DNA of 64,000 nucleotides from Acidimicrobiia bacterium (lineage in GTDB: Bacteria > Actinomycetota > Acidimicrobiia > Spongiisociales > Spongiisociaceae): the NCBI GenBank assembly GCA_011523635.1, contig WTGI01000057.1:6804-70803 (forward strand), given 5' to 3'. The first letter of the stretch is position 1. The number at the start of each line of letters is the position of its first letter. The notes below the pieces were generated by a model, which was not told the origin of the DNA, did no database searches, and worked only from the letters and a program-made list of their open reading frames with translations. Positions 23,619 to 24,875 of the stretch are shown piece by piece. Both the position numbers and the translations under genes were made by a program.

Positions 23619-23648
23619 TTGTCGGGGCGGTTGCCGATGGGGTAACCT
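23619..23648 (+). promoter_or_regulatory. Promoter of the aromatic leader peptide and DAHPS-like gene
   Basis: A -35 of TTGTCG (23619-23624) and a -10 of TAACCT (23643-23648) are separated by 18 bases. The -10 ends 7 bases before the GTG of the leader peptide, so the transcript probably begins on that codon. Confidence 0.5.
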
Positions 23649-23655
23649 GCCCATC

Positions 23656-23727
23656 GTGACTTCTACCCAGGTGTATTCGTACTTCGCCTTTACCGGGCCC
23701 GGCGCCCGGGCCTGGCGTGACGTCTAG
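23656..23727 (+). CDS. Aromatic leader peptide (Tyr/Phe/Trp), attenuation control
   Basis: GTG at 23656 opens a 23-codon frame ending at TAG 23725-23727. Codons 7-12 read YSYFAF and codon 20 is Trp, so five of 23 residues are aromatic and four of them fall within six codons. This is the form of a ribosome-stalling leader peptide sensing charged tRNA-Tyr and tRNA-Phe. The GTG sits at leaderless spacing from the -10. The DAHP-synthase/chorismate-mutase-like gene begins 86 bases downstream, with a terminator-like hairpin between. Too short for ordinary gene finding; the aromatic clustering and the downstream gene are the evidence. Confidence 0.8.
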   Translation: MTSTQVYSYFAFTGPGARAWRDV

Positions 23728-23780
23728 ACCTCACCTGTCGTAGAAAGCCAAGGCCCGGAGCGCCCGCTCCGGGCGCTTTG
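23706..23780 (+). terminator. Attenuator: terminator hairpin with competing antiterminator
   Basis: GCCCGGAGC (23753-23761) and GCTCCGGGC (23766-23774) make a 9-base perfect stem followed by GCTTTG, a terminator-like hairpin. CCGGGCCT (23706-23713), inside the leader peptide frame just before and touching the Trp codon, is perfectly complementary to AGGCCCGG (23751-23758), which overlaps the terminator's 5' arm. A ribosome stalled on the Tyr/Phe codons would leave the first segment free to pair and block termination. A ribosome reaching the stop codon would cover it and allow termination. The U-tract is short, as is common in GC-rich actinobacteria. Confidence 0.7.
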
Positions 23781-23813
23781 ACGTTCGGAGCGAAATCCCA
23801 CCGGAGGAGCATC

Positions 23814-24875
23814 ATGGAACGCAGAGCACTACGCAACGGATCACCCGTGGACACCATCGTCGCGGTGGGAGAGACCCGGTTCGGGCACGACCCGTTCCCG
23901 ACCATCGCAGGCCCCCGGGCGGTCGAGTCGGAGGAACAGATCATGGGGGTCGCCGCTGTGGTGGCCGACGCCGGCGCGGCCGTGCTCCGGGGTGGGGTAT
24001 ACGAGTCGAGCGCCTCGCCGTACGAGTTTCCGGGACTGGGCCAGCCCGGCCTGGAGTTGTTGCGGGACGCAGGTGCCGAAGTGGGCCTGCCCACGGTTAC
24101 CAAGGCCCTGGAACCCAAGGACGTCGAGCTGGTCGCCTCCCATGTCGACATGATCCACGTCGATCCCCGCTCCATGCAGAACTTCGAGTTGCTGCGCGTG
24201 ATCGGCGGGACTGGGAAGCCGGTGCTACTCGAGCGCGGAGGCTCGGCCACCGTGGACGAGTGGCTGTGGGCGGCCGAGTACGTGCTCGCAGAGGGCAATG
24301 ACCAGGTGGTGCTGTGCGAGGGGGGCATCCGCACCTTCGAGAAGTCAACGCGGGCAACCCTGGACCTCAGCTCGATCCCGGTGCTGAAGGAGATCAGCCA
24401 CCTCCCGGTCATCGTGGCTCCTTCCGCAGCCGCCGGATCCCGGACCAGGATCCAGCCCTTGTCGCTGGCCGCCCAGGGCGTCGGCTCCGACGGGCTGATG
24501 GTGGAGGTCCACCCGGATCCCATGGCGGCCCGCACCGCGGTGTCCCATCAGATCACCTTCGAGATGTTCACCGCTCTCATGGACGCGCTGGGCGTCAATC
24601 GGGTCCGGATGAACATCGACATGATCGACCGCGATCTGGTCCGCCTCCTGGCGCGCCGGTATCTCATGGTCATGCGGGTGGGCCGGATCAAGGCCGAACG
24701 TGGGATGCCGGTCCACGTACCCGAGCGCGAGGAGGAGCTGCTGGCCGTCGTCAGGCAGGAAGCGGAGAGGCACGGTCTGGTTCCGGTCGAGGTCGAGAAG
24801 ATCTTCGAACTCATCCTGGAGCAGGCCCGTAATACGCAGCACCGGGAGCGGGCAGGATCCTGGTCCAGCGCCTGA
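23814..24875 (+). CDS. DAHP-synthase-like (probably inactive) domain fused to chorismate mutase
   Basis: A 353-residue protein. Residues 10-245 follow the type I DAHP synthase barrel (SPYEFPGLG, TFEKSTRATLDLSSIPVLKE, GLMVEVHPDP). Residues 265-340 form an AroQ-type chorismate mutase with R-MNIDMIDRDLVRLLARR, Lys in GRIKAERG and the REEE site retained. The synthase active site is altered throughout: the metal-ligand Cys in AGPCSVES is Arg (AGPRAVES), the Lys of AYKPR is Glu, LLKRG is LLERG, CERG is CEGG and the metal-ligand His of DPSH is Ala (APSA). The synthase reaction is therefore unlikely, while the mutase may be active. GGAGGAG precedes the ATG at 23814. The upstream attenuator links expression to aromatic amino acids. 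Confidence 0.8.
   Translation: MERRALRNGSPVDTIVAVGETRFGHDPFPTIAGPRAVESEEQIMGVAAVVADAGAAVLRGGVYESSASPYEFPGLGQPGLELLRDAGAEVGLPTVTKALEPKDVELVASHVDMIHVDPRSMQNFELLRVIGGTGKPVLLERGGSATVDEWLWAAEYVLAEGNDQVVLCEGGIRTFEKSTRATLDLSSIPVLKEISHLPVIVAPSAAAGSRTRIQPLSLAAQGVGSDGLMVEVHPDPMAARTAVSHQITFEMFTALMDALGVNRVRMNIDMIDRDLVRLLARRYLMVMRVGRIKAERGMPVHVPEREEELLAVVRQEAERHGLVPVEVEKIFELILEQARNTQHRERAGSWSSA

Follow-up and report, generated by a model that had tools for sequence, protein, structure and literature searches.

The locus described here, a short reading frame with clustered tyrosine and phenylalanine codons followed by RNA segments that can pair in two ways, raises the question of which gene it serves and by which mechanism. 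It lies on contig WTGI01000057.1 of an Acidimicrobiia bacterium (assembly GCA_011523635.1), of which a stretch of 64,000 nucleotides, the window, was analysed (Table 1). The gene that begins 39 nt past the 9-bp hairpin codes for a DAHP synthase fused to a chorismate mutase. Aromatic amino acid synthesis begins with the DAHP synthase reaction, and chorismate mutase catalyzes the branch-point step leading to Phe and Tyr. Aconitase-family genes (leuC- and leuD-like) and lgt are the upstream neighbors. The first-pass annotation had described the RNA structures correctly, but the identity of the gene and a fifth pairing segment went unnoticed.

From the anatomy, conservation and covariation observed at this locus and its relatives, we infer stalling, a termination decision and an amino acid response: the leader is very probably a ribosome-mediated transcription attenuator, which ties expression of the DAHP synthase-chorismate mutase gene to charged tRNA-Tyr and tRNA-Phe. 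Transcription would begin at the GTG codon or within a few bases of it, and the ribosome would translate the leaderless frame. As long as Tyr and Phe are in good supply, the ribosome would reach the stop codon, segment 2 would be covered or re-paired with segment 1, segments 3 and 4 would then pair, and RNA polymerase would terminate. When Tyr- or Phe-tRNA is scarce, the ribosome would stall at codons 7–12 and mask segment 1; segment 2 would capture segment 3 ahead of the synthesis of segment 4, and transcription would go on. After read-through, segment 4 would be free to pair with segment 5.

Table 1. Features of the leader and its predicted target gene (window coordinates)
Feature	Position	Strand	Basis
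-35-like hexamer TTGTCG, 18-nt spacer to -10 box	23619–23624	+	Sequence; comparison over 61 leaders
-10 box TAACCT, 7 nt upstream of leader GTG	23643–23648	+	Sequence; TANNNT in 61 leaders
Putative leaderless leader peptide gene, GTG to TAG, product VTSTQVYSYFAFTGPGARAWRDV followed by stop	23656–23727	+	Sequence, ortholog leaders, SD scan
Candidate control codons Tyr7, Tyr9, Phe10, Phe12 (YSYFAF, codons 7–12)	23674–23691	+	All 61 DAHP synthase leaders contain Tyr and Phe codons
Segment 1, partner of segment 2 in a 10-bp register (23706–23715) or, alternatively, a 6-bp one (23693–23698/23704–23709)	23693–23702	+	MFE fold of naked RNA
Segment 2, CCGGGCCT, antiterminator 5' arm, within leader reading frame	23706–23713	+	Sequence, folding, covariation
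Segment 3: 23751–23758 with segment 2 (antiterminator); 23753–23761 with segment 4 (terminator)	23751–23761	+	Folding, covariation
Segment 4, terminator 3' arm: 23766–23774 with segment 3; 23765–23774 with segment 5	23765–23774	+	Folding, covariation
Weak U-tract region GCTTTGAC after terminator stem	23775–23782	+	Sequence
Segment 5, GTTCGGAGCG; complement of 23765–23774 in segment 4; U-tract in 4:5 loop	23783–23792	+	Shuffle test, covariation
Shine-Dalgarno sequence GGAGGAG of structural gene	23803–23809	+	Sequence
Predicted target gene: DAHP synthase (PF00793) with C-terminal type II chorismate mutase (PF01817), fusion	23814–24875	+	Family domains

Leader peptide and start signals

Direct reading of the sequence gives a frame of 23 codons with a GTG start and a TAG stop at 23725–23727, and the earlier description of a leaderless frame with YSYFAF at codons 7–12 and Trp at codon 20 is exact. 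If translated as predicted, the leader is rich in codons for amino acids that belong to the pathway, or the use, of the downstream gene. The leader has its -10 box some 7 nt upstream of the start codon and lacks a Shine-Dalgarno (SD) sequence, which points to a leaderless transcript with a predicted start at the leader itself. Among related leaders, a TANNNT box occurs 6–10 nt upstream of the start codon in all 61, as demanded by the rule by which leaders were found; the best -35 score reaches 4–5 of 6 in 43 of the 61, as compared to about 16% of control positions, and an SD-like tetramer precedes the start in only 2 of 63. Leaderless attenuators place their control codons within 7–12 codons of the 5' end, constraining the coupling of transcription and translation. 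The first-pass annotation considered a leaderless leader peptide unusual; such peptides are in fact common in Actinobacteria, and RNA-seq has located several in S. lividans (PMC8079986).

Conservation across the order

At the genus and family level 12 orthologs were recovered, all of which have retained both helices, antiterminator and terminator, together with a GTG leader of 23 codons. At the order level, the upstream regions of orthologs from other families were included, giving 61 leaders from seven families of the order. The search was mechanical, taking small frames after a TANNNT box without a codon filter, and yielded essentially one candidate per locus, which was aromatic-rich. The set used for statistics comprises the 61 leaders with at least three Phe or Tyr codons, so that the bare presence of aromatic codons is partly selected, while the joint presence of Tyr and Phe, the positional limit and the TTT bias lie outside the selection rule. 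Both amino acids are encoded in every one of these leaders. Phe and Tyr codons make up 283 of the 732 codons at positions 2–13 and 1 of the 518 later ones, counts which are not independent, several leaders being from close relatives; the control codons thus end where segment 1 begins. As the final control codon, TTT is used in 55 of 61 leaders, as compared to 3 of 89 Phe codons in the genes of the window. This rare codon (23689–23691 in the window) could raise the sensitivity of stalling, or could belong to the conserved TTTACCGGG core.

The leader recurs in dozens of related genera; it was found upstream of nearly all orthologs examined, and is missing or altered in some lineages (genus g42, part of family f2, and family f5). 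In the order-wide upstream search, no leader was found at a second DAHP synthase paralog or at DAHP synthase fusions of 700 residues. The latter, found in families f5 and f8 (L086, L089–L098, L105), carry DAHP synthase inside an open frame of about 700 residues, the upstream part of which resembles the end of prephenate dehydratase; they are probably PheA-DAHP synthase fusions which lack a leader of this kind. At the position of the leader start, locus L036 reads ACG and its sister locus L035 ATG; both have fewer aromatic codons, which we read as a leader that is decaying or differently started. A family f8 genome contains, beside its native copy, a 3-kb contig (G109:C15, locus L029) with a 90%-identical leader of the f1 type and its gene; this contig is probably contamination, or possibly the result of transfer.

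Competing helices and their covariation

In the window, CCGGGCCT at 23706–23713 and AGGCCCGG at 23751–23758 match as perfect reverse complements, the first half of the pairing being part of the leader's codons. The putative terminator is a strong hairpin (23753–23761/23766–23774) of 9 bp, eight G-C and one A-U, closed by the loop GCCC; the two pairings are mutually exclusive. The U-tract that follows is weak in the window, with three U only (GCGCTTTGACG), and T-richer in most relatives. The region folds better than all of 200 dinucleotide shuffles (z = -4.7), and the antiterminator piece alone gives z = -4.2; the 2:3 match of the window, taken as a single locus, reaches only p = 0.05–0.1. The stem and the perfect 8-base alternative pairing of the earlier description are correct base for base and far above chance. 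The 9-bp terminator reaches -19.5 kcal/mol in the window, the 8-bp antiterminator by itself only -14.7 kcal/mol, hence the choice between them must be kinetic or aided by segment 5.

Alignment A4, which consists of 21 divergent sequences, shows the terminator helix paired in 21 of 21, with changes on both sides at 4 of 9 pairs. For the 2:3 plus 4:5 set, 82% of cells are paired and 7 pairs have changed on both sides; sliding the partners by one base lowers the pairing to about 53% or less. The 6-bp register of 1:2 is paired in 93.7% of cells in the alignment. In dinucleotide-shuffle tests of 29 representatives, helix 2:3 alone gave p ≤ 0.05 in 10 and a combined p of 3e-11, uncorrected for kinship; in many members of family f7, where it comprises about 5 bp, it is not individually significant. 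Antiterminator and terminator are thus mutually exclusive and conserved with compensatory changes. The first-pass annotation had proposed a comparison of aromatic codons and pairings among relatives; the codons persist in all of the leaders compared, and both helix sets covary.

Ribosome position and the predicted choice of helix

Folding of the window RNA with a ribosome placed on Tyr9 or Phe10 predicts the antiterminator 2:3 together with 4:5, while a ribosome on Trp20 or on the stop codon predicts the terminator. Across the family, a ribosome stalled at the last Phe or Tyr codon as segment 3 emerges is predicted to give the antiterminator in 58 of 58 leaders, and a ribosome at the stop codon the terminator in 58 of 58, this second half being partly built in, as the terminator helices were picked beforehand. 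In these models the geometry suits an attenuator: a stall at the control codons would free segment 2, and the stop position would permit the terminator. The predictions agree with the earlier proposal that stalling at Tyr or Phe exposes the antiterminator and translation to the stop hides it. Trp was rejected as a control codon: it lies downstream of segment 1, the fold from Trp20 gives the terminator, and Arg replaces it in L010–L012, in line with the first-pass expectation that Trp is not a main signal.

Distribution and redeployment of the module

A covariance model of the leader, R1, was also searched against the class and against 396 genomes sampled over the phylum. It matched in 84 genomes of this order of Acidimicrobiia and, marginally, once elsewhere in the class; in the 396 phylum-wide genomes its matches outside the order were ordinary terminators only, an absence that is provisional in view of the strict filters applied to large sets. 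The marginal phylum matches L239, L240 and L242 were rejected, each being a hairpin at the end of an ordinary gene; L235 and L241 look like ordinary gene-end hairpins too.

Second copies of the module lie upstream of pheS, which codes for the alpha subunit of Phe-tRNA synthetase, in several genera (L217–L227, L229, L230, L232, L233; gene identities at these loci and for the type I-alpha DAHP synthase below were read from translations). Their leaders, such as MISLLRSQSFAFTGPGARASGVS, contain Phe without Tyr: Phe occurs in 15 of 15 and Tyr in 1 of 15 (Fisher p = 2e-14, uncorrected for kinship). Phe codons alone before pheS, and Tyr plus Phe before DAHP synthase, are what a stalling attenuator predicts; the pheS copies amount to a natural codon-swap experiment, one that lends support to the idea of ribosome stalling without any bench work. 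In the window's own genome no leader was found upstream of pheS, which closely follows another gene. Genus g6 carries the module upstream of a type I-alpha DAHP synthase gene (L228, L234; leader MNVARFSSYYFFGPTGSK). In the same genus, DAHP synthase-chorismate mutase genes have an altered leader (L066, L067, L072, L073). Locus L231 (G113:C55) has a Cys-rich leader frame (MSPSTVCVCCCCRRFRVRPGEVTC) and a terminator-like hairpin upstream of a cysteine synthase-like gene, and is likely a cysteine attenuator.

These data bear on two other explanations. One is arrest by the nascent peptide, as in TnaC, which responds to tryptophan in this way: the conserved ...FTGPGAR might stall the ribosome upon binding a free aromatic ligand. 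Family f1 indeed keeps FTGPGAR, and most pheS leaders FTGP.AR; however, the peptide past FTG is not conserved in other families (FTGLRPGSA, FTGAGPRST, FFGQSPG) while the base pairing is kept, which places the conservation at the RNA level, and the codon content follows the downstream gene. We rejected peptide arrest as very improbable. Even less credible is an ordinary intergenic terminator or palindromic repeat beside a chance small frame. Complementary words are common in GC-rich DNA, the 2:3 match of the window is modest, and the marginal R1 matches outside the order are ordinary terminators, but the recurrence in seven families, the codon content, the start signature and the covarying alternative helices contradict such a coincidence.

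Segment 5 and the 4:5 helix

Like segment 3, segment 5 is able to pair with segment 4, so that segment 4 has two possible partners. In shuffle tests the 4:5 helix gave p ≤ 0.05 in 22 of 29 representatives (combined p about 1e-23, uncorrected for kinship); 84.7% of its cells are paired, and 3 pairs have changed on both sides. Segments 4 and 5 covary across genera, GGTCTCGGGC occurring with GCCTGGGACC, and GGCTTCGGG with CCTGGGGCC, and an automated terminator finder often picked the 4:5 hairpin over 3:4. The helix is conserved upstream of DAHP synthase and largely missing from pheS leaders (present in 1 of 8 tested), hence the core switch does not need it.

Since segment 5 sits 12–38 nt (median 21) upstream of the start codon in 55 loci, the leader might act mainly on translation, with pairing in the read-through RNA setting access to the SD sequence of the DAHP synthase gene, comparable to translational attenuators and SD-sequestering T-boxes. 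Predicted SD accessibility is 0.50 in the antiterminated form, as compared to 0.43 otherwise (p = 0.002) and 0.39 without segment 5 (p = 0.01), p-values that are generous because the sequences are related. The effect is, however, small and inconsistent, the predicted pairing of segment 4 with the SD sequence is nearly nil (mean 0.01–0.04), and the presence of a conserved GC-rich hairpin, with a T-rich stretch behind it in most relatives, suggests termination of transcription. We therefore rejected segment 5 as an SD switch, and regard control mainly at translation as improbable.

Within the transcription attenuator, the 4:5 helix may stabilize the antiterminated form or shield the start region after read-through. 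It is conceivable, if doubtful, that the leader as a whole is a five-segment, two-state device, in which 4:5 locks the antiterminated RNA, encloses the U-tract and adjoins the ribosome-binding site, so that one stall would set both read-through and the later state of the RNA (translation or stability), with the core module also redeployed before pheS without Tyr codons. The conserved post-terminator helix raises the question of the fate of attenuator RNA after read-through.

Comparison with known leaders

Rfam (4227 families, including Phe and Trp leaders) gave no match at gathering score in the window, and in open-licence full text no report of such a leader for Acidimicrobiia was found. The leader represents an RNA family absent from Rfam, and gives an almost wholly uncultured clade a point of shikimate-pathway control that is predicted and can be tested.

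The pheA and pheST attenuators of E. coli consist of a leader with Phe codons and segments pairing as 1:2, 2:3 and 3:4. They resemble the Acidimicrobiia module in serving genes of aromatic biosynthesis and Phe-tRNA synthetase, the module likewise preceding pheS in some genera. It differs from them in its predicted leaderless translation, in its use of Tyr codons as well, and in that Rfam 15 gave no match at E ≤ 1 to 23560–23880. The actinobacterial trp, ilvB, leuS and leuA leaders encode leader peptides with alternative hairpins, and many are transcribed leaderless (Seliverstov et al. 2005, PMC1262725; PMC8079986), but they concern other amino acids and genes; upstream of phenylalanine or tyrosine operons, no conserved structures were reported in the Actinobacteria examined (PMC1262725).

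The direct functional precedent is the aroR leader of Corynebacterium glutamicum, which precedes the operon of the DAHP synthase gene aroF (Neshat et al. 2014, as described in PMC11802643 and PMC4046766). According to these descriptions, it shares with the Acidimicrobiia leader the phylum Actinomycetota, a Phe-Tyr-Phe run, a DAHP synthase gene and a proposed increase of transcription upon stalling, and the operon is reported to respond to Phe, not to Tyr. Compared with aroR as described there, the Acidimicrobiia leader is distinguished by the gene fusion, longer runs of Tyr plus Phe, the nearly invariant TTTACCGGG core and segment 5; the likeness is one of functional analogy. The mechanism of attenuation is thus known, whereas the RNA family, its redeployment before pheS and the 4:5 helix appear to be new.
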